Positions 35,734-46,405 of a DNA stretch of 64,000 nucleotides are shown here, one piece after another. The stretch covers positions 558,001-622,000 of the forward strand of contig NZ_CANMEZ010000001.1 in NCBI RefSeq assembly GCF_947496985.1, given 5' to 3'. Within the stretch, counting starts at the first letter, position 1; each line of letters opens with the position of its first letter. A model generated the notes under the pieces. That model was not told where the DNA came from. It did no database searches and saw nothing but the letters and a program-made list of their open reading frames with translations. Source of the stretch: an uncultured Kordia sp. (GTDB lineage: Bacteria; Bacteroidota; Bacteroidia; Flavobacteriales; Flavobacteriaceae). A program made the translations under genes and the position numbers.

Positions 35734-36999
35734 TTAAACTAAGAATTGAAATAAATCGGGTTTATCATTTAAGTAGTCGCCGTAAAAGTTTCTTAATTTC
35801 ATTTTCGTGATTAATGCTTCTAAATCATCCGCATTTTTTAATTGCAATCCTACAACTGCTGCGCCGTTCTCACGATTGGTTTTTTTGGTATATTCAAAAT
35901 GTGTAATGTCGTCTGTTGGACCTAATATTTCTGCAACAAATTCGCGCAAAGCTCCTGCGCGCTGTGGAAATTTGATAATGAAGTAATGTTTTAAGTTTGC
36001 ATATAATAATGCACGTTCTTTGATTTCGGCGGTTCGTGTAATATCATTATTACTTCCACTTACAACACAGACAACATTTTTATCTTTTATTTCAGTTGCA
36101 TATTGCGATAATGCGCCTATACTTAAAGCTCCTGCAGGTTCAACAACAATTGCTTGTCGGTTGTATAAATCTAAAATTGTTTGACAAACTTCGCCTTCAT
36201 CAACCGTAATCATTTGGTGTAAATTTTCTTTACAGATGGCAAAGTTTAAATCGCCAACACGCTTTACAGCAGCTCCATCTACAAAATTTTCAATACTTTT
36301 TAGCCTGGTATTTCTATCTTTTTGAATTGATGTTGACATCGATGGCGCACCTTTGGGTTCTACACCAATAATTTTTGTTTTTGGAGATAACATTTTGAAT
36401 ACTGAAGACAATCCGGCAGATAATCCGCCACCGCCAACAGGCACAAACACATAATCAATTGGAGTTTCAAGCTGATTTAGTATTTCTAAACCAATAGTAG
36501 CTTGTCCTTCAATGACTTTTTTATCGTTAAACGGATGAATAAATGTTTTGTTTAATCGTTCCGATGCTGAGATTGCGGCATCATATGCATCATCAAATGT
36601 ATCGCCAATTAATACAACCTCAACATAGTCTTCTCCAAACATTTTGACTTGTTCAATCTTTTGATTTGGTGTTGGTGTTGGCATGAATATCGTTCCTTTT
36701 ATTTGTAATAATTTACACGATATGGCAACACCTTGTGCATGATTTCCAGCACTTGCACACACAATTTCATTTTCAACTTGACTTGAAGTCAACGATGCTA
36801 TTTTGTTGTATGCACCACGAATTTTATACGATCGAACTTGTTGTAAATCTTCTCGCTTTAAGTAGACATTACAATTCCATTGTTTTGAATAATAGTCGTT
36901 ATAACTCAAAGGCGTTACCGAAGCAATGCCTTTGAGTGTTTTTGCAGCTGTTTTAATGGCTGCTAACGTTGGAGCGTATGTTTTTGTGGTTGTTTGCAA
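35734..36999 (-). CDS. ilvA: threonine dehydratase (biosynthetic)
   Basis: IlvA deaminates threonine to 2-oxobutanoate, the first step specific to isoleucine. The PLP lysine is in [19 protein letters not shown]; a glycine-rich phosphate loop is [14 protein letters not shown]; the C-terminal regulatory ACT-like domain begins near [20 protein letters not shown]. There is one ACT-like domain (421 residues) rather than the two of E. coli IlvA. The start is a TTG: no ATG lies nearby, and the residues after it align with where family members begin. Feedback control by isoleucine is expected from the ACT domain. Confidence 0.93.
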
Positions 37000-37270: not shown

Positions 37271-38773
37271 CTATACGGTAACAGCCTTTTCTGTTTTCAC
37301 AGTTGTTTTTATTGTTTTCATAGCTGTCATTGCGGCTCTGAGTCGTTTTCCAACAGCTTCTATTGGATGATTTCGAATGGCATCATTTACAGCAATTAAA
37401 TCTAAGTTGTCTACTGCATTTGAACTTGAAAATGGTTTTCCAATCACTTCCGTAGAAACGTCTTTGATAAAATCTTCAAGCAATGGTTTGCATGCATGAT
37501 CGAATAAGTAGCAACCATATTCGGCTGTATCAGAAATTACTCGATTCATTTCAAATAGTTTTTTACGCGCAATTGTATTTGCGATTAATGGTAATTCGTG
37601 CAACGATTCGTAATAAGCAGAATCTTCAATAATTCCTGCACTTACCATCGTTTCAAATGCTAGTTCTACACCAGATTTTACAAAGGCAACTAATAATACT
37701 CCATGATCGAAGTATTCTTGTTCCGAGATATGATCTGTGGTCAAAGCCGTTTTTTCAAAAGCAGTTTCTCCTGTTGCTGCACGCCATTTGAGTAAGTTTT
37801 TATCATCATTTGCCCAATCTTCCATCATCGTTTTTGAAAAATGACCCGAAATAATATCGTCCATATGTTTTTCAAATAATGGTTTCATAATGGTTTTTAA
37901 TTCTTCCGAAAGTTCAAATGCTTTCAGTTTTGCAGGATTCGATAAACGATCCATCATATTGGTAATTCCCCCATGTTTCAACGCTTCTGTGATAGTTTCC
38001 CAACCTAGTTGAATCAATTTTGCAGCATAATCAGCGTCAATTCCGTCAGCGACCATTTTATCAAAAGCTAATATTGAACCTGTTTGCAATACACCGCAAA
38101 GTATGGTTTGTTCTCCCATTAAATCACTTTTCACTTCTGCTATAAAAGATGATTCTAATACACCAGCTCTGTGTCCACCAGTGGCAACTGCATAGGCTTT
38201 TGCTTGTGCCCAACCTTTGTTTTCTGGATCATTTTCTGGATGCACAGCAATAAGTGTCGGCACGCCAAATCCTCGTTTATATTCTTCACGCACTTCCGTT
38301 CCTGGACATTTTGGCGCTACCATAATTACCGTGATATCTTCACGAATTTTAGTGCCTTCTTCTACAATATTGAAACCGTGCGAATAACTTAAGGTTGCTC
38401 CTTTTTTCATTAAAGGCATAACCGCTTTCACAACATTTGTATGTTGCTTGTCTGGTGTAAGATTTAAGACTAAATCTGCTGTTGGAATCAACTGTTTGTA
38501 GGTTCCAACTTTAAAACCGTGCGATGTTGCATTTTGATATGAATTACGTTCTTCATCAATAGCTGCTTGGCGTAATGCATATGAAATATCTAATCCTGAA
38601 TCGCGCATGTTTAGTCCTTGATTTAAACCTTGTGCACCACAACCTACAATGACAATTTTTTTATCTGTAAGTGCTTTGACTCCTTCTCCAAACTCGGAAG
38701 CATCCATAAATCTACATTTTCCTAGTTGTGCGAGTTGTTCTCGTAATGATAGTGTATTAAAGTAATTTGACAT
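37271..38773 (-). CDS. ilvC: ketol-acid reductoisomerase (long, class II form)
   Basis: IlvC rearranges and reduces acetolactate or acetohydroxybutyrate with NADPH and Mg2+. The 500-residue length and the layout match the E. coli-type class II enzyme with a duplicated C-terminal domain. Marks: Rossmann motif [20 protein letters not shown] near 34-53, NADPH-type [36 protein letters not shown], and the metal-binding region with [11 protein letters not shown]. It follows ilvN by about 100 bases; the next 271 bases before ilvA carry two repeat elements. Confidence 0.97.
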
Positions 38774-38877: not shown

Positions 38878-39411
38878 TTAATGATTGAATGCTTCTTCAA
38901 GCATTTTTGATATTTTCATTTCTTCTTTGCTGACTGCAATTCGTCCAGAACGTGTAAATTGCATGATTCCAAAGAAACTGAGTTCTCGGTATAATAGTTC
39001 GATTTCTTCTTTACGTCCTGATTTTTCTATGACAAAAAATTGCTTGTTTACCGTGACGATTCGCGCATTGCTATCTTTTATAATATTTTGAATTTGACGT
39101 TCATCAAACAATAAATCAGATTTCATTTTAAAGATGCTCGATTCTTGATATATGATTTCTTCTTCTGTATGATAATATGCTTTAATGACTTCAACTTGCT
39201 TTTCTATTTGACCGATGATTTTTTTCATTTGTTCTTCGGTCAGATTCACAACTATGGTCCATTTTGAAACGTTTTCAATTTCTGAAACAGACGAGTTAAT
39301 GCTTTCAATATTGATATGTCTTCGTTGGAATATTGCTGAAATTCTATTCAACAATCCGATGTTATTTTCGGTATATACCGAAACCGTAAATTGTTTGCTT
39401 TCTTGTTCCAT
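38878..39411 (-). CDS. ilvN: acetolactate synthase small (regulatory) subunit
   Basis: The 177-residue regulatory subunit binds valine and tunes the catalytic subunit IlvB. The N-terminal ACT domain reads FTVSVYTENNIGLLNRISAI, then FQRRHINIESINSS; the C-terminal half carries the second conserved domain (LLYRELSFFGIMQFTRSGRIAV). It follows ilvB by 116 bases and precedes ilvC, the usual order. Confidence 0.95.
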   Translation of the reverse strand: MEQESKQFTVSVYTENNIGLLNRISAIFQRRHINIESINSSVSEIENVSKWTIVVNLTEEQMKKIIGQIEKQVEVIKAYYHTEEEIIYQESSIFKMKSDLLFDERQIQNIIKDSNARIVTVNKQFFVIEKSGRKEEIELLYRELSFFGIMQFTRSGRIAVSKEEMKISKMLEEAFNH

Positions 39412-39527: not shown

Positions 39528-41261
39528 TTAACTCAATCTTATGTCTGAAACCGATGCTCCTGTTGGAATCATTGGAAATACGTTATCTTCTTTTTCTACG
39601 CATACTTCTAAGAAATATGCTTCTTTGCTTTCCATCATTTCTTGTACTGCTTCCGCTAATTCTTCTCGTTTGGTTACACGTCGTGCATTTAAATGATATC
39701 CTTTAGCAATAGCTACAAAATCAGGATTTGTCATTTCGGTAGATGCGTAGCGTTTGTCAAAAAATAATTGTTGCCACTGACGTACCATTCCTAGAAAATC
39801 ATTGTTTAAAACCACAATTTTCACGGCTGCTTTTTGCTGAAAAATGGTTCCTAATTCTTGAATGGTCATTTGATAACCACCATCTCCGCACACACAAACT
39901 ACTTCACGTTCGGGCGCTGCCATTTTTGCTCCAATTGCTGCAGGCAAACCAAATCCCATCGTTCCTAAACCACCAGAAGTAATGTTACTTTTTGTTTGGT
40001 TGAAGTTTGCATAACGACAGGCAATCATTTGATGCTGACCAACATCAGAAACAATGGCTGCTTCACCTTTACTTTGAATGTTGATTTCTTTCATTACTTC
40101 ACCCATTGTCAACCCTTCTTTAGTAGGATGTAAATCGTTTTTGATGACTTTTTCATATTCTATTGCATACAAATCATCAAATGCGCGTCTCCATATAGAA
40201 TGTGACTTTTTACGGATGTATGGTAAAATTCCTGCTAAACTCGCTTTGGCATCGCCTAAAACAGCTACATCAGTTTTTACATTTTTGTCAACTTCCGCAG
40301 GATCTATTTCAAAGTGAATCACTTTTGCTTGTTTGGCATATGTTGCAAGGTTTCCTGTTACACGATCATCGAAACGCATTCCGATAGCGATTAATACATC
40401 ACATTCGTTTGTCAACACATTTGGCGCATAGTTTCCATGCATTCCAACCATTCCAACATTTAGTGGATGTGCTGTAGGAATTGCAGAAACACCTAGAATG
40501 GTCCATGCAGATGGAATTCCAGCTTTTTCAATAAACGCTTTAAATTCGGCTTCAGCCTTGCCTAAAATCACGCCTTGTCCCCAAACAACCATAGGTTTTT
40601 TTGCAGCATTAATTAATTTTGCAGCAGCTTTTAACGAGTTTTCATCTGTTTCAGGAACTGCTTTGTAACTACGAACACCTTTGCATTTTTCATATGAAAA
40701 GTCAAATTCTTCAAATTGCGCATCTTTTGTAATGTCAATCAATACAGGACCTGGACGACCACTTTTAGCAATGTAAAATGCTTTTGCCATGACTTCTGGA
40801 ATTTCAGAAGCTTTCGTAATTTGATGATTCCATTTGGTTACTGGCGTAGAGATTCCAACAATATCTGTTTCCTGAAACGCATCACTTCCTAGTAAATGTG
40901 AAGCGACTTGCCCAGTAATGCAAACCATTGGTGTAGAATCAATTTGCGCATCCGCTATACCTGTAATTAGGTTGGTAGCTCCTGGACCTGATGTTGCAAT
41001 TGCCACACCAACTTCTCCAGAGATTCGTGCGTATCCTTGTGCTGCATGTGTAGCACCTTGTTCGTGACGTGTGAGTACATGATGAATTTGATCTTGATAT
41101 TTGTATAATTCATCATATACGGGCATAATTGCGCCACCAGGATAACCGTATAATGTACTTACACCTTCTGCCAACAGACATCGTACGATAGCTTCGCTAC
41201 CTGAGATACGTTCAGTTTTTTGAAGTGTTTCTTGTGTTTGTTTTATGGTGTTTGTTTCCAT
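39528..41261 (-). CDS. ilvB: acetolactate synthase large (catalytic) subunit
   Basis: IlvB is a thiamine-diphosphate enzyme (577 residues) that condenses two pyruvates, or pyruvate and 2-oxobutanoate. The catalytic Glu is in LTRHEQGATHAAQGYAR, the cofactor-binding motif is GDGGYQMTIQELGTI ending in NN (VVLNNDFLGMVRQWQ), and a FAD-binding middle domain is present. Its start lies 90 bases from the ilvD stop, an interval that holds two hairpin repeats. Confidence 0.97.
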   Translation of the reverse strand: METNTIKQTQETLQKTERISGSEAIVRCLLAEGVSTLYGYPGGAIMPVYDELYKYQDQIHHVLTRHEQGATHAAQGYARISGEVGVAIATSGPGATNLITGIADAQIDSTPMVCITGQVASHLLGSDAFQETDIVGISTPVTKWNHQITKASEIPEVMAKAFYIAKSGRPGPVLIDITKDAQFEEFDFSYEKCKGVRSYKAVPETDENSLKAAAKLINAAKKPMVVWGQGVILGKAEAEFKAFIEKAGIPSAWTILGVSAIPTAHPLNVGMVGMHGNYAPNVLTNECDVLIAIGMRFDDRVTGNLATYAKQAKVIHFEIDPAEVDKNVKTDVAVLGDAKASLAGILPYIRKKSHSIWRRAFDDLYAIEYEKVIKNDLHPTKEGLTMGEVMKEINIQSKGEAAIVSDVGQHQMIACRYANFNQTKSNITSGGLGTMGFGLPAAIGAKMAAPEREVVCVCGDGGYQMTIQELGTIFQQKAAVKIVVLNNDFLGMVRQWQQLFFDKRYASTEMTNPDFVAIAKGYHLNARRVTKREELAEAVQEMMESKEAYFLEVCVEKEDNVFPMIPTGASVSDIRLS

Positions 41262-41351: not shown

Positions 41352-43031
41352 TTAGAACTCATCAGTTACGCAACCTTTGGATGCGGATGAAACCGTTTTT
41401 GCATATTTGTATAATACACCGCGTTCAAATTTGAGTTCTGGTGCTTTCCATTGTTTTCTACGTTCTTGAAGTTCTTCTTCGTAGACTTCTAATCGTATCG
41501 TGTTCGTTTCTGCATCAATTGTGATGATGTCTCCATCTTTTACCAGTGCAATTGTTCCGCCTTCTTGTGCTTCTGGTGTAATGTGTCCGACGACAAAACC
41601 ATGTGTTCCTCCTGAGAAACGTCCGTCTGTAATGAGTGCGACATCTTTCCCTAAACCTGCACCCATAATTGCGGCTGTTGGCTTGAGCATTTCTGGCATT
41701 CCTGGTCCGCCTTTTGGCCCTTCGTAGCGAATGACGACTACATCTCCTTTTTCTACTTTTCCATCACGGATTCCGTCGTTTGCTTCGTATTCTCCTTCAA
41801 AAACTTTGGCTTTTCCAGAGAATTTTAATCCTTCTTTTCCTGTTATTTTTGCCACACTTCCGTCACTTGCTAAGTTTCCATATAGCATACGTAAGTGTCC
41901 TGATATTTTGATTGGATTTTCAATGGGTTTGATCACATCTTGACCTTCTTTTAAGTCATCAACATCTAATAAGTTTTCAGCAATCGTTTTTCCTGTTACC
42001 GTCATACAATCGCCGTGAATTAATCCTTTTTTAAGGAGATATTTTAATACCGCAGGAATTCCACCAACCGCATGTACATCTTCCATTAAGTATTTTCCAC
42101 TTGGTTTTAAGTCAGCTAGAAATGGCGTTGTATCACTTATTTCTTGAAAGTCTTTGAGTGTGAAATCGATTTGTGCAGCTCTGGCAATTGCCAAAAAGTG
42201 TAATACCGCATTTGTTGATCCACCCAAAATCGTGACCAAACGAACTGCATTTTCTAATGATTTTCGCGTGATGATATCCGATGGTTTGATGTCTTTTTCT
42301 AGTAGTACTCGCATCGCTTCTCCCGCTGCAACAGATTCTTGCTTTTTAGCATCACTTAATGCAGGATTTGAAGAGTTAAAAGGTAAAGTCATTCCTAAAG
42401 CTTCTATAGCAGAAGCCATGGTGTTTGCTGTATACATTCCGCCACAAGCGCCAGCACCTGGACATGCTTTTTCAACAATACTTTGGTATTCCGTTTCGTC
42501 CATTGTACCCGCAACTTTACTTCCCCAAGCTTCAAACGCGGAAACAACATCGAGTTTTTTTCCATTGTGGCAACCAGAATCGATTGTTCCGCCATAGACC
42601 AAAATGCTTGGGCGATTTAAGCGAATCATTGCCATTAAAGCACCTGGCATGTTTTTATCGCAACCTACAACCGTAATTAATCCATCATAACTCATGGCTT
42701 GCACAACCGTTTCCATAGAATCGGCAATGATATCACGTGAAGGCAACGAATAGCGCATACCTGGAGTTCCCATAGAGATTCCGTCACTTACACCAATCGT
42801 ATTGAAGATTAGTCCAACCACATCTTCATTTTTGGTTCCTTGCTTTGCCAGTTTTGCCAAATCGTTTAAGTGCATGTTACATGGATTTCCTTCGTAACCT
42901 GTACTTGCAATTCCGATAATAGGTTTGAAAAAGTCTTCTTTTGTCAAACCGATTGCATGTAGCATGGCTTGCGCCGCTGGTTGCGTAGGATCTTGTGTGA
43001 CTGTTTTGCTGTATTTATTCAGATTGTTCAT
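41352..43031 (-). CDS. ilvD: dihydroxy-acid dehydratase
   Basis: IlvD dehydrates dihydroxy acids to the keto acids of valine and isoleucine and uses an iron-sulfur cluster. The 559-residue product has the cluster cysteines in [15 protein letters not shown] and [17 protein letters not shown], and the later signature [20 protein letters not shown]. Its start overlaps the ilvE stop by four bases (ATGA type), so the two genes are translationally coupled. Confidence 0.97.
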
Positions 43032-43927
43032 CCTGCTTTTGATAGTTTTTTAGCGCGTTCGCAAAGCACTTCTTGTTTGTATATTTTCATTAGTTTGTAA
43101 CCCAGAGACGATTCCCACGAAAGTGGAAATGTATATGCATCTAAAGACGCCAACCCAACTACTTCTGCGGCAGTTCCTGTAAAGAATGCACTGTCTGCTT
43201 GTTTTAACTCTGCTAACGTAAATTCTGTTTCTTCTACTGAGAAACCTTCTTCTTTGCAGATTTCTATGATGGTTGAACGTGTAATTCCTGCCATGATATG
43301 TCCGCGTTTTGGCGTGTAGAGTTTTCCATCTTTTTCCATGAATACGTTGGCTCCAGAACATTCTGCTACGTTTCCGTTCATGTCTAATAGTAATGCTTCG
43401 TCATATCCTGCATTTTTGGCTTCGTTTGTTGATAGAATTGAATTAGTATAGTGTCCTGTAACTTTCGCTTCTACAAAGCACGATTTTGGATTTGGACGTT
43501 CAAAACGAGATGTTTTTACTTTTAGGAGTTTGTCGCCCATGTATTTTCCCCATTCCCAACATTGAATCGTTAAAAATGATTCGTCGGACGTTAGCAAGCT
43601 CATGTTTGCGCCTGTTGTCAGTATTGGTCGAATGTATGCGTCTTGTAAGTTGTTTTTTTCTAGTAGTTTGTAGGTGATGTTTACTAATTCTTCAATAGAA
43701 TAGTTGAACGGAATTCCCATGACCTCAGCTCCATATTGAAGGCGTTCGTAATGTTCTCTGGCTTTGAATATTTTTGTGCCAAATTTTGTTTTGTACGCTC
43801 TGATTCCTTCAAATACACCATTTCCATAGTGCAATGCTTGACTGTACATGTTTCCAGCCGCGCTTTCTGGATGCATGTATGTACCGTTGTGATAGATGAT
43901 ACTGTCTTTAGTATAATACATTTTCAT
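43028..43927 (-). CDS. ilvE: branched-chain amino acid aminotransferase
   Basis: IlvE transfers the amino group of glutamate to the branched 2-keto acids. The 299-residue fold-type IV PLP protein shows [20 protein letters not shown] near the N-terminus, the probable PLP lysine in [14 protein letters not shown], and the phosphate-binding GIT(R)ST segment ([18 protein letters not shown]). It is the first structural gene of the ilv run. About 290 bases upstream begins the tandem attenuator region. ATG at 43927 or the one two codons later are both possible starts. Confidence 0.95.
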
Positions 43928-44138
43928 AGTTATTATTATTCGAAATTAATTTTATTGTTTTTTTTTGTGTATTCTGTTTTGATGATTCCCCTAGAATCAA
44001 TTGTTAATTTTTTTATTTAATATACTGATTATTAGGTTATTACTATTATTCAAATACAATGCTCAACGTGTTGTTTTTTACTGTGTTTTTTGTTATTTAT
44101 TCTTTGTTTTTCGTCGTTTCGATTGTTTTTTGGTTTTT

Positions 44139-44177
44139 TATGAGATCCCGCTCTTTAGCGGGATTAGTTCAACTTAC
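44139..44177 (+). repeat. dispersed hairpin element, copy 4
   Basis: GAG, stem ATCCCGCT (44145-44152), loop CTTT, stem AGCGGGAT (44157-44164), then TAGTTCAACTTAC. It lies past terminator B of the ilv leader and closely resembles copy 5 at 44393-44430 in sequence and flanks. Confidence 0.65.
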
Positions 44178-44221
44178 AGTTTTAAGCGCATCCTTCGGAT
44201 TTCTTAAAACTGAGTTTCACT

Positions 44222-44255
44222 AAAAAAAGCCTGTATCGCAATTGATACAGGCTTT
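44222..44255 (-). terminator. ilv attenuator terminator B (proximal module)
   Basis: On the minus strand AAAGCCTGTATC (44255-44244) pairs with GATACAGGCTTT (44237-44226), followed by seven T (44228-44222). It lies 29 bases past the stop of leader peptide 2. TTGATAC at 44282-44276, just past that stop, can pair with GTATCAA (44248-44242) in the terminator's first arm, giving a 7-bp antiterminator. Confidence 0.8.
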
Positions 44256-44283
44256 ATATTTTTATATAGCAAATCGTATCAAC

Positions 44284-44343
44284 TCAGGTGGAGTTCATAA
44301 TTATAATGACGATGACGATAATGCTGATTATGGTTTGATTCAT
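44284..44343 (-). CDS. ilv leader peptide 2 (proximal), MNQTIISIIVIVIIIMNST
   Basis: A 19-codon reading frame, too short for usual gene finding: ATG at 44343, TGA at 44286-44284. Eight of 19 codons are Ile (ATA, ATC and ATT all used) and two are Val; there is no Leu. An intrinsic terminator follows at once, and ilvE lies about 360 bases downstream on the same strand. This is the classic arrangement of ribosome-mediated attenuation: stalling at Ile or Val codons when the charged tRNA is scarce would favour an antiterminator and let transcription into ilvEDBNC proceed. Homology to a known Rfam or leader family was not tested. Spelled out by codon reading of the minus strand. Confidence 0.85.
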   Translation of the reverse strand: MNQTIISIIVIVIIIMNST

Positions 44344-44392
44344 TGTTTTGTTTGTTGTTTGAAAAAATATAAAAGTTTCTTTACTGTTTTTT

Positions 44393-44430
44393 ATAAGATC
44401 TCGCTCTTCAGCGGGATGAGTTCAACTCAC
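44393..44430 (+). repeat. dispersed hairpin element, copy 5
   Basis: AAG, stem ATCTCGCT (44398-44405), loop CTTC, stem AGCGGGAT (44410-44417, one G-T pair), then GAGTTCAACTCAC. It separates terminator A from leader peptide 2. Confidence 0.65.
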
Positions 44431-44452
44431 ATTTTTTGGTGTGATTTGAAAT

Positions 44453-44482
44453 AAAAAAAGCCTTCCGATAAAGGAAGGCTTT
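44453..44482 (-). terminator. ilv attenuator terminator A (distal module)
   Basis: On the minus strand AAAGCCTTCC (44482-44473), loop TTTATC, GGAAGGCTTT (44466-44457), then seven T. It starts 34 bases past the stop of leader peptide 1. CGATAAGGAA, which spans that stop (44522-44513), can pair with TTCCTTTATCG in the first arm with one bulged base, an antiterminator-type alternative. Confidence 0.8.
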
Positions 44483-44516
44483 GTAATTTTTATAGTGAAA
44501 TTATAGATAGCATTCC

Positions 44517-44579
44517 TTATCGTTGTGAGCGAATCACAATGACGTTGATAGCAATGATATTTATAATTTGTTTGTTCAT
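44517..44579 (-). CDS. ilv leader peptide 1 (distal), MNKQIINIIAINVIVIRSQR
   Basis: A 20-codon frame on the minus strand: ATG at 44579, TAA at 44519-44517. Seven codons are Ile and two are Val. The upstream sequence (AAACTTTTA, A-rich) resembles that of leader 2, and the two modules are spaced 236 bases ATG to ATG, so they look like a tandem duplication. Terminator A follows. The last codons (GTC ATT GTG ATT CGC TCA CAA) form a hairpin TTGTGA / TCACAA that resembles the dispersed repeats. The function as an attenuator is inferred from this layout. Confidence 0.8.
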   Translation of the reverse strand: MNKQIINIIAINVIVIRSQR

Positions 44580-44776
44580 TTGTTATATCAAATATTGTAA
44601 AAGTTTTTTTAGATTCCTAATGTATTGTTGAAAAATATTGTTGTTTTTTCTGTCTTTGCAGGGAATTTTGTTATCAATTATAGATTTATTTCTTCTTAAA
44701 TATGTTTTAATATAATCTGTTTAAAAAAAATTATAATTTAAGATTACAAGACAGTCATTTAGTAACACTCATTTTT
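44580..44776. other. AT-rich interval holding the presumed ilv promoter
   Basis: The ilv leader promoter should lie here or just downstream of gltD, since leader 1 begins at 44579. I find no clean TTTG-N19-TAnnTTTG match; the nearest is an AATATTTG ten bases before the leader ATG, which is too close to serve. No gene is seen. Confidence 0.3.
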
Positions 44777-44908
44777 GTCTTGACACAAAAACGAGTCAAA
44801 AAAGTCAAGACGATCTATAGGAAATTGCTATGCAACATTCGCTCATGCACTTCATGCTTAAAGCTTCGCTTTGCAATTCTGTTTTTCGCTCATTATTTCT
44901 TAAGATCG
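44777..44908 (+). repeat. two-copy structured intergenic element, copy B
   Basis: GTCTTGAC (44777-44784) pairs with GTCAAGAC (44804-44811); CGATCT (44811-44816) pairs with AGATCG (44903-44908). Interior blocks shared with copy A include TATAGGAAATTGCTA, CATGCTTAAAGC, GCAATTC and TCATTATTTCT. It lies just past the gltD stop on the minus strand. Confidence 0.7.
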
Positions 44909-44938
44909 CCATTTTAGAAATCATTAAAAAAATTTAAC

Positions 44939-46405
44939 CTAAATACGTGGCAAATCACTATTATCTTTTAGTGGAAGGTTTGAAGTTCCCATTAGAAAGG
45001 CATCTACATGATGTGCCGCTTGGCGACCTTCTGAGATTGCCCAAACGATTAATGATTGTCCTCTGCGCATATCGCCAGCCGTAAATATTCCTGATTGATT
45101 GGTGGCATAGTTTTTTGTCGTCGCTTTGATATTGTTTCTGAAATCCATTTCGAGTTCAAACTCGTCTGCTAAGGTTTTTTCGGCTCCTGTAAAACCTAAT
45201 GCTAGTAATACTAAGTCACATTCCCAATGCTTTTCTGTACCTGATATTTCTTTGAGTTGTGGACGTTCTCCTTCTTTGAAAATCCATTCGACTTCTACCG
45301 TTTTTAAACCTGTTAGATTTCCTTTTTTGTCTTTTATAAATTCTTTTGTGGAGATGCTAAAGAAACGCTCTACACCTTCTTGATGTGATGATGTTTCTTT
45401 GAGTTTCATTGGCCAATATGGCCACGGTTGATGTGCAGGACGACCAATAGTTGGTTTGCTCAAAATTTCAAAGTTTGTGACGGATATTGCACCATGACGA
45501 TTGCTGGTTCCGATACAATCTGAACCTGTATCGCCACCGCCAATTACGATGACTTTTTTATCTTTTGCTGAAATGATTTGATCAAAGTTTAGCAAACCAT
45601 CTACATATTGATTGTTCTTTTTTAAGAAATCCATTGCTTGATGTACACCTTTTGCATCTGCTCCGTCTATTGGAATGGTTCTTCGGATGGTTGCGCCTCC
45701 GCACAGCAATATGGCATCAAAATTTTCTTTTAATTGACTCGCTTTTACATTTACACCAACATGCGCATTTGTTTTAAACGTAATTCCTTCTTCTTGTAAA
45801 ACCTTGATACGTCTGTCAATGATTTGTTTTTCCATTTTAAAATCAGGAATTCCATAACGCAATAAACCACCAACTTTTTCGTCTCGTTCAAAAACAGTGA
45901 CTGAATGACCTGCACGATTGAGTTGTTGTGCTGCCGCTAAACCTGCTGGTCCAGAACCAATGATTGCAACCGTTTTTTCAGTTCGTATTGTTGGCGGTTT
46001 TGCAATAATCCAACCTTCTGCGAAAGCGGTTTCTACAATGTTTTTTTCAATGTTTTCAATACTTACCGGATCTTCATTAATACCTAATACACAGGCTTCT
46101 TCACACGGAGCTGGACATAAACGACCTGTAAACTCTGGAAAGTTATTGGTAGCGTGTAAAATTGCTGCTGCTTCTTTCCATTTTCCTTTGTATACTTTAT
46201 CATTAAAGTCTGGAATTAGATTTCCTAACGGACAGCCACTATGGCAAAACGGAATGCCGCAATCCATACAACGTGCACCTTGATTTTTGAGTTCAGTTTC
46301 TTCTAATGGAATTGTAAATTCTTTGTAATTTTTGATACGTTCCGTTGCAACTTGATATGCTTCATCTTGACGTTTGTGCTCTAAAAATCCTGTTATTTTT
46401 CCCAT
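44939..46405 (-). CDS. gltD: glutamate synthase (NADPH) small subunit
   Basis: GltD passes electrons from NADPH through FAD and iron-sulfur clusters to the large subunit. The 488-residue product has an N-terminal cysteine-rich domain (CMDCGIPFCHSGCPLGNLIP near 47-66, then CPAPCEEAC), a FAD-binding motif VAIIGSGPAGLAAAQQLNRAG and an NADPH-binding motif KVIVIGGGDTGSDCIGTSNR. It lies three bases downstream of gltB and the pair forms an operon. Confidence 0.97.
   Translation of the reverse strand: MGKITGFLEHKRQDEAYQVATERIKNYKEFTIPLEETELKNQGARCMDCGIPFCHSGCPLGNLIPDFNDKVYKGKWKEAAAILHATNNFPEFTGRLCPAPCEEACVLGINEDPVSIENIEKNIVETAFAEGWIIAKPPTIRTEKTVAIIGSGPAGLAAAQQLNRAGHSVTVFERDEKVGGLLRYGIPDFKMEKQIIDRRIKVLQEEGITFKTNAHVGVNVKASQLKENFDAILLCGGATIRRTIPIDGADAKGVHQAMDFLKKNNQYVDGLLNFDQIISAKDKKVIVIGGGDTGSDCIGTSNRHGAISVTNFEILSKPTIGRPAHQPWPYWPMKLKETSSHQEGVERFFSISTKEFIKDKKGNLTGLKTVEVEWIFKEGERPQLKEISGTEKHWECDLVLLALGFTGAEKTLADEFELEMDFRNNIKATTKNYATNQSGIFTAGDMRRGQSLIVWAISEGRQAAHHVDAFLMGTSNLPLKDNSDLPRI

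Follow-up and report, generated by a model that had tools for sequence, protein, structure and literature searches.

Predicted isoleucine/valine leader-peptide attenuators in series upstream of ilvE in Kordia and related Flavobacteriaceae

Introduction

In the enterobacterial attenuators (ilvL, trpL, hisL and thrL) a leader peptide rich in the regulated amino acids precedes a terminator (3:4) with an alternative pairing (2:3), and region 2 is masked by the ribosome when it reaches the leader stop. The locus described here, upstream of ilvE in an uncultured Kordia sp., resembles these systems in its short Ile/Val-rich leaders, its terminators, the 2:3 alternative and the predicted masking of region 2 at the stop. 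Unlike them, it has two such units in a row without a clear 1:2 protector hairpin, its first leader is predicted to be nearly leaderless, and it matches no Rfam leader family at gathering score. Single Bacteroidota attenuators may already be covered by Vitreschak et al. 2004, whose abstract reportedly names Bacteroidetes/Chlorobi, and by Lopatovskaya et al. 2010.

The nearest known case is the leader of Salmonella mgtCBR, for which tandem attenuators have been described; there they answer different signals (ATP and proline) with additive effect and form, in their authors' words, a 'singular example' (PMC3641672, available text). As in mgtCBR, two short frames, here predicted to share one leader mRNA, are each tied to an attenuation-like decision, one of the mgtCBR frames being rich in Pro codons; unlike mgtCBR as that text presents it, both leaders here are rich in the same codons and have an intrinsic terminator each, in front of other genes and in another phylum. 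Tandem homologous riboswitches, reported to give more 'digital' control, likewise sense one signal with repeated units within a single leader. They differ in binding a ligand (or, in the T box, uncharged tRNA), and the words 'leader peptide' do not occur in the available text of that source (PMC9481103).

Other systems share single elements with this locus. The ilvB-II uORF of Corynebacterium and the ilvB-OMG motif also place a frame rich in branched-chain amino acid codons upstream of ilv genes, and attenuation has been proposed for them, but each is a single frame, found in Corynebacterium and, for ilvB-OMG, in 'various bacterial phyla' (PMC10272879, available text). In F. psychrophilum, a member of the same family as the Kordia sp., leader-peptide attenuation has been suggested for amino acid biosynthesis operons; in the main text, as far as available, 'ilv' is absent and 'tandem' is used for other things (PMC9723704). 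The rimP leader of some Gammaproteobacteria has, like our locus, a second terminator in tandem upstream of the first and a potential antiterminator, but the available text mentions no amino-acid leader peptide (PMC2965389). The two leader peptides of ermB act translationally, according to the available text of PMC8274638.

Results

Two leader-terminator modules precede ilvE

The DNA analysed (the window) is a stretch of 64,000 nucleotides. Between the gltD stop (44939) and the ilvE start (43927), its minus strand holds two leader frames rich in Ile and Val, with an intrinsic terminator behind each (Table 1). A first-pass annotation made from the sequence had reported both frames, and its codon and residue counts match ours. 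It had also placed an intrinsic terminator with a seven-T run after each leader; both are present, the hairpins starting 32 nt (terminator 1) and 28 nt (terminator 2) past the leader stops and each followed by seven T. A simple terminator scan returned four sites, which are the two hairpins read on both strands, against an average of 0.3 in shuffled sequence. The segments near the leader stops that had been proposed to pair with the terminators were found as well and are somewhat longer, region 2 being CGATAAGGAATGCTA in module 1 and GAGTTGATACGATTTGCTA in module 2.

Table 1. Features of the ilv upstream region and of the downstream genes in the window
Feature	Position	Strand	Description	Support
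gltD	44939-46405	same as modules	upstream of modules	
Probable sigma-A -7 box	44589..44596	(-)	AATATTTG, one mismatch to TAnnTTTG; ends 9 nt before leader 1	
Leader peptide 1	44517..44579	(-)	MNKQIINIIAINVIVIRSQR*, 20 codons, 7 Ile, 2 Val, no Leu	
Region 2 of module 1 (antiterminator arm)	44508..44522	(-)	overlaps leader stop	pairing against shuffles
Intrinsic terminator 1 (type 1)	44455..44484	(-)	AAAGCCTTCC..GGAAGGCTTTTTTT	terminator scan, genus alignment
Leader peptide 2	44284..44343	(-)	MNQTIISIIVIVIIIMNST*, 19 codons, 8 Ile, 2 Val, no Leu	
Region 2 of module 2 (antiterminator arm)	44267..44285	(-)	begins inside leader stop	pairing against shuffles
Intrinsic terminator 2 (type 2)	44226..44255	(-)	GCCTGTATC..GATACAGGC	terminator scan
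ilvE	43028..43927	(-)	class IV aminotransferase, predicted first regulated gene	PF01063
ilvD	41352..43031	(-)		PF00920/PF24877
ilvB	39528..41261	(-)	acetolactate synthase large subunit	PF02775/PF00205/PF02776
ilvN	38878..39411	(-)	acetolactate synthase small subunit	PF10369/PF22629
ilvC	37271..38773	(-)	ketol-acid reductoisomerase	PF07991/PF01450
ilvA	35734..36999	(-)	threonine dehydratase with regulatory domain	PF00291/PF00585

Pfam assignments give the downstream gene order ilvE, ilvD, ilvB, ilvN, ilvC, ilvA, which is the operon that the annotation had claimed, and an aldehyde dehydrogenase gene follows ilvA. The annotation had further argued that leaders without Leu fit an operon without leu genes. 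The absence of Leu holds in the present genome, but it is weak evidence of specificity, because Leu makes up about 5% of the residues in the leaders of the family.

Two further sequence features of the region were looked at. A segment that can form a TCCCGCT..AGCGGGA hairpin follows each terminator (44388-44430 and 44132-44172); it has three hits in the genome with one mismatch allowed, and similar text stands behind the terminators of some relatives in the genus. We rejected a reading of the type-2 terminator as a repeat spread over the genome, since its exact stem core matches nowhere else in this genome.

Paired modules recur in a constant order across the family

We collected 139 ilv upstream regions of the family, comprising 11 from genomes of the window's genus, 28 loci and 100 further stretches. 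The gene ilvD was found in 195 of 239 genomes, and the family regions were taken from among the matches listed. Two of the first 30 ilvD loci belong to the genus and were counted there, and the genomes G253, G204, G202 and G019 were represented by the ilvE locus instead; 120 further ilvD places were listed, of which 100 were used and 20 left out. The further stretches span 2460 bases each (one, at a contig end, 1627) and the other 39 regions 1560 bases, so that leaders farther upstream would be missed. For a module to be called, the detector required an ATG frame 12-36 codons long in which Ile+Val reach at least 28% and Ile+Val+Leu at least 35%, with an intrinsic terminator 8-60 nt further on.

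With this detector, which was tuned on these data and run at identical settings on the controls, 30 regions had two modules, 42 had one and 67 had none, compared with 1, 5 and 133 on the reverse strands of the same regions. When only the last 1100 nt were searched, the counts were 26, 40 and 73, and no module at all turned up in 278 dinucleotide shuffles of these segments (two per region). An earlier, stricter detector, which was loosened after it had missed long terminator loops, gave 28 pairs, 36 singles and 75 regions with none, against no pairs and 3 singles on the reverse strands. In the comparison with other Flavobacteriaceae that the first-pass annotation had proposed, Ile/Val-rich frames before terminators recur both in the family pairs and in all 11 genomes of the genus.

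The order of the modules is constant: in 30 of 30 pairs, spread over 17 genera (by genus codes), the terminator of the GCCTTCC type (type 1) comes first and that of the GCCTGTATC type (type 2) second. The single modules comprise 27 of type 1, 13 of type 2 and 2 others, and since singles of both types exist, each module can stand alone. Among the 67 module-less regions, 17 contain a match to either terminator motif, some of them clearly by chance, and 50 contain neither; L002 and L154 are near relatives by the ilvD tree without a module. That tree (87 rows, quick method) requires 28 state changes overall and at least 10 for the tandem, of which the starred branches force 6. The distribution is scattered, and the tree does not separate gain from loss; an ancestral pair is suggested by the constant order and terminator types. 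As a separate observation, GCCTTCC and GCCTGTATC, the words of the two terminator types, seem to be kept across genera more strictly than base pairing would require by itself.

In the following counts of composition, promoter boxes and pairing, the window genome alone represents its genus, and two modules of another terminator type were dropped. Ile and Val together make up 43% of all residues in the 47 type-1 leaders and 44% in the 33 type-2 leaders, the leaders having been selected for at least 28%. Separately, Ile accounts for a fraction of 0.304 in both types and Val for 0.124 in type 1 and 0.138 in type 2. These near-equal fractions led us to reject the possibility that the modules sense different amino acids, and with it an assignment to the mgtCBR type, in which the two units answer different signals. 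The equal make-up of both leader types speaks against a two-input logic and for a repeated decision on one signal.

A promoter-like box precedes first but not second leaders

Promoters of F. psychrophilum carry a sigma-A -7 box at -12 to -5; the median 5' UTR is 24 bp, 5.5% of mRNAs are leaderless, and the organism is without Shine-Dalgarno sequences (PMC9723704, available text). In the window, the AATATTTG box predicts a 5' UTR of about 5 nt for leader 1. The TTTG, with at most one mismatch to the box, stands before leader 1 in 11 of 11 genus genomes, and in the last 40 nt before leader 2 it occurs in 0 of 11. Across the family, using a pattern drawn up after inspecting the upstream sequences, we found that 42/60 first or only leaders, as opposed to 1/20 second leaders, have a promoter-like box whose end lies 3-10 nt before the ATG. 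The narrower pattern TANNNTTG, searched in the last 35 nt, was present in 7 of 20 first leaders of a pair, in 12 of 27 (type 1) and 10 of 13 (type 2) single leaders and in none of 20 second leaders, on a background of 2-5%; pooled, this amounts to 29/60 first or only leaders versus 0/20 second leaders.

With the box at -12 to -5, the predicted 5' UTR of most first or only leaders is about 0-6 nt long, which would make them nearly leaderless, unlike second leaders. Since second leaders nearly always lack the box that most first or only leaders have, a single transcript probably carries both modules, with leader 2 on the read-through transcript of leader 1 and started internally.

Alternatively, the modules might not be in series at all, leader 2 having its own promoter so that two separately started transcripts are each attenuated once. 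Such a transcript seems to exist in relatives, given that type-2 modules stand alone in 13 of 139 regions, mostly (10/13) with a promoter-like box in the last 35 nt, and a promoter for leader 2 could also sit further upstream in the spacer. We nevertheless regard separate transcripts as unlikely: besides the near-absence of the box before second leaders, the stretch before leader 2 does not align within the genus, whereas the block upstream of leader 1 is conserved over roughly 60-80 nt.

Both modules are retained within the genus

The genus sample comprises 11 genomes. All 11 have both modules in the same order, before ilvE in 10, as the first-pass annotation would lead one to expect, and directly before ilvD in G003 (L090), where this ilvE was not found. 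Leader 1 has 20 codons (60 nt) without indels in 11 of 11; leader 2 has 15-20 codons (45-60 nt) in 11 of 11, its length changing only in frame. The distance between the leader starts ranges from 160 to 441 nt, and the inter-module spacer does not align, whereas the modules align well. The variable columns at codon positions one to three number 7, 7 and 10 in leader 1 and 6, 4 and 15 in leader 2. Of the codon variants in leader 1, 7 are synonymous and 20 non-synonymous; for leader 2 the figures are 15 and 22. The residues appear loosely constrained, which fits codon sensing and is no positive proof that leader 1 is translated.

These data bear on the possibility that only one module functions and that the other survives by chance as the leftover of a duplication or an inserted terminator. 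Single modules are common enough to show that one suffices in many species. A chance remnant is quite improbable, however, when both modules persist in every genus genome while the spacer between them decays, when the type 1-then-type 2 order recurs in 17 genera, and when terminator, antiterminator and frame are intact in both.

Region 2 can pair with the terminator and lies where a ribosome at the stop would mask it

Pairing of region 2 with the 5' arm of the terminator was stronger than in shuffled spacers (p<=0.05) in 58 of 80 modules (31/47 type 1, 27/33 type 2) and remained above p 0.05 in 16/47 and 6/33, in a test whose shuffles preserve base composition only and whose related genomes are not independent. 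In the window, the pairing energy was -11.6 kcal/mol in module 1 (shuffle mean -3.3; p=0.003) and -11.5 kcal/mol in module 2 (shuffle mean -5.2; p=0.01). At the median, region 2 reaches from position -3 or -6 to position +11 or +12, counted from the end of the leader stop, a stretch that a ribosome at the stop would cover.

We then folded the window modules as transcripts ending at the terminator loop at 37 C, assuming that the ribosome covers 12 nt, counted from the first base of its A site. For A-site positions from codon 5 to codon 16, the expected number of 2:3 pairs was 9.7-12.0 in module 1 and 9.5-10.7 in module 2; with the A site at the stop it fell to 0.1 and 1.2, respectively, and the picture was the same at 22 C. 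Codons 5-16 include every Ile/Val codon of the window leaders, and the last four codons of both are free of Ile and Val. The same trend holds in the family, where Ile/Val account for 337/555 core residues of type-1 leaders but 22/141 in the last three codons, and for 215/322 against 10/99 in type-2 leaders. With Ile and Val depleted in the last codons, the sensing codons end where masking by the ribosome begins.

Equilibrium folding of the whole module with a ribosome mask was uninformative: the terminator dominated at every ribosome position, with a lowest probability of 0.78, and this folding was replaced by that up to the terminator loop. Because the complete hairpin always favours the terminator, the switch must be kinetic and decided during transcription, as is assumed for attenuation generally. 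In the folding without any ribosome the 2:3 pairing forms in both window modules. A TTGTGA/TCACAA hairpin in module 1 abuts region 2 and does not block it, and neither window module showed a protector hairpin that would prevent ribosome-free 2:3 pairing; failure to start the leader should therefore give read-through.

The leaders might instead work without codon-dependent stalling, through nascent-peptide arrest, free peptides, or control of the terminators by a protein or small RNA, and the recurrence of the GCCTTCC and GCCTGTATC words across genera could mean an extra ligand. We hold this to be very improbable, since the peptide sequences vary except for their richness in Ile and Val and region 2 lies over the leader stop in both types. 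An Rfam search returned no family at gathering score in the window; the best match below the cut-off, located over module 1, was the Phe leader (attenuator), with 39.8 bits against a cut-off of 55 (E 6.6e-05), and no T box or riboswitch was among the 14 Rfam matches at E<=1 in 43900-44950.

Hardly credible is a reading of terminator 1 as the end of a gltB-gltD operon with a chance frame before it: gltD does lie upstream on the same strand, and its end was seen in 23 of 139 regions, 19 of them with one or two modules, but its stop is about 450 nt before terminator 1 with the conserved promoter-like block and the leader in between, 53 of 72 module-bearing regions show no gltD in the stretch examined, and a module is missing from 4 of the 23 regions that contain gltD.

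Modules occur beyond this pair type

Around ilvD in 80 loci of named records, we detected one module in 44, two in 7 and none in 29, compared with one in 4 and none in 76 on the reverse strands. Single modules were present in Flavobacterium, Chitinophaga, Pedobacter, Chryseobacterium and others. Gaetbulibacter and Lutibacter have the type 1-then-type 2 pair, Tenacibaculum has a variant first hairpin followed by type 2, and pairs with other terminators were found in an Aquimarina, a Cyclobacteriaceae MAG, a Chryseobacterium and a MAG named Ignavibacteriae. Type labels in the 80-locus survey, the tree and the 18 loci below are loose outside the pair type: L130 and L132 carry the label 1 because of CCCTTCTC hairpins, and L008 has the label 'o' on its first hairpin.

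Of 18 family loci found by ilvE, several from genomes that overlap the 139, 10 had a pair of modules, 3 a single module and 1 a triple, while 4 had none; on the reverse strands a single module was seen in 2 and none in 16. One of the four without a module, L140, lies at a contig start with no sequence before the gene. The detector found three Ile/Val leader-terminator modules in a row upstream of ilvE in L139 (G270). L135 (G103) is also a triple when two scans are taken together, its middle leader falling just below the detector threshold. Over all these surveys, modules seem to have been stacked on more than one occasion. In the triples the last two modules are, by eye, near copies of each other, and the first resembles Flavobacterium leaders.

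A leader search within 1.5 kb of the leuA-like gene, two homoserine dehydrogenase genes and hisG of the window's genome gave one candidate, before hisG (L280): a His leader, MTFTQLHHHHFHTGNQAR, with a terminator 31 nt later, which we predict to be a single His attenuator.

Discussion

The first-pass annotation had proposed two ribosome-mediated attenuators in series, and the constant order and terminator types, the antiterminators over the leader stop and the box before the first leader only all strongly support it. We conclude with considerable confidence that two leader-peptide transcription attenuators act in series on one ilvEDBNC-ilvA transcript. Computation establishes the anatomy of the modules, their conservation, the antiterminator pairing and the lack of a promoter-like box before leader 2. 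Transcription would begin a few nucleotides before leader 1, and the leader would then be translated. When Ile- and Val-tRNA are charged, the ribosome would proceed to the leader stop and cover region 2, the terminator would form, and the transcript would end at about 44455. A ribosome stalled on an Ile or Val codon would leave region 2 free to pair with region 3, the terminator's 5' arm, and RNA polymerase would continue. Leader 2 would then take a second, independent round of the same decision, which requires a ribosome loaded at an internal start, and only co-transcribed messages that pass both modules would reach ilvE. We infer that the response to Ile and Val supply would be steeper through the multiplied read-through of the two modules, which is a model.

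The recurrence of the pair in many related genera looks like a selected arrangement and not an accident. Taking a broader view, we favour, with some reservation, the idea that serial attenuation is old and recurrent in Bacteroidota, where two decisions on the same amino acids, or three at some loci, would multiply into a steep response with low leak, the first being read from a nearly leaderless mRNA and the next from internal starts. On this account the type 1-then-type 2 pair may be ancestral to much of the family and may have been lost module by module, and other pairs and triples may have arisen separately.

The claim that such an arrangement had not been described for Bacteroidota needs dividing. 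It stands for the serial array, in that we found no report of serial leader peptides for the same amino acid signal among the open-access matches listed; it does not stand for attenuation as such, which has been suggested in flavobacteria (PMC9723704, available text). Single Ile/Val modules are of a known kind and occur widely in Bacteroidota; the novelty lies in their conserved arrangement in series for the same amino acids, as a variant of that kind. The finding is real, and our reading of it is very likely right.

If this reading is true, the locus would provide, as far as the open-access matches listed show, the first conserved example in which ribosome-sensing attenuators for the same amino acids stand in series, and it would operate in bacteria without Shine-Dalgarno sequences, as stated for F. 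psychrophilum (PMC9723704, available text). It also shows a route to annotating leader peptides and control regions that ordinary gene finders miss because they are so short. Relatives that naturally carry module 1 alone, module 2 alone, the pair or a triple would provide a ready-made set on how the number of modules relates to the sharpness, leak and threshold of the response.
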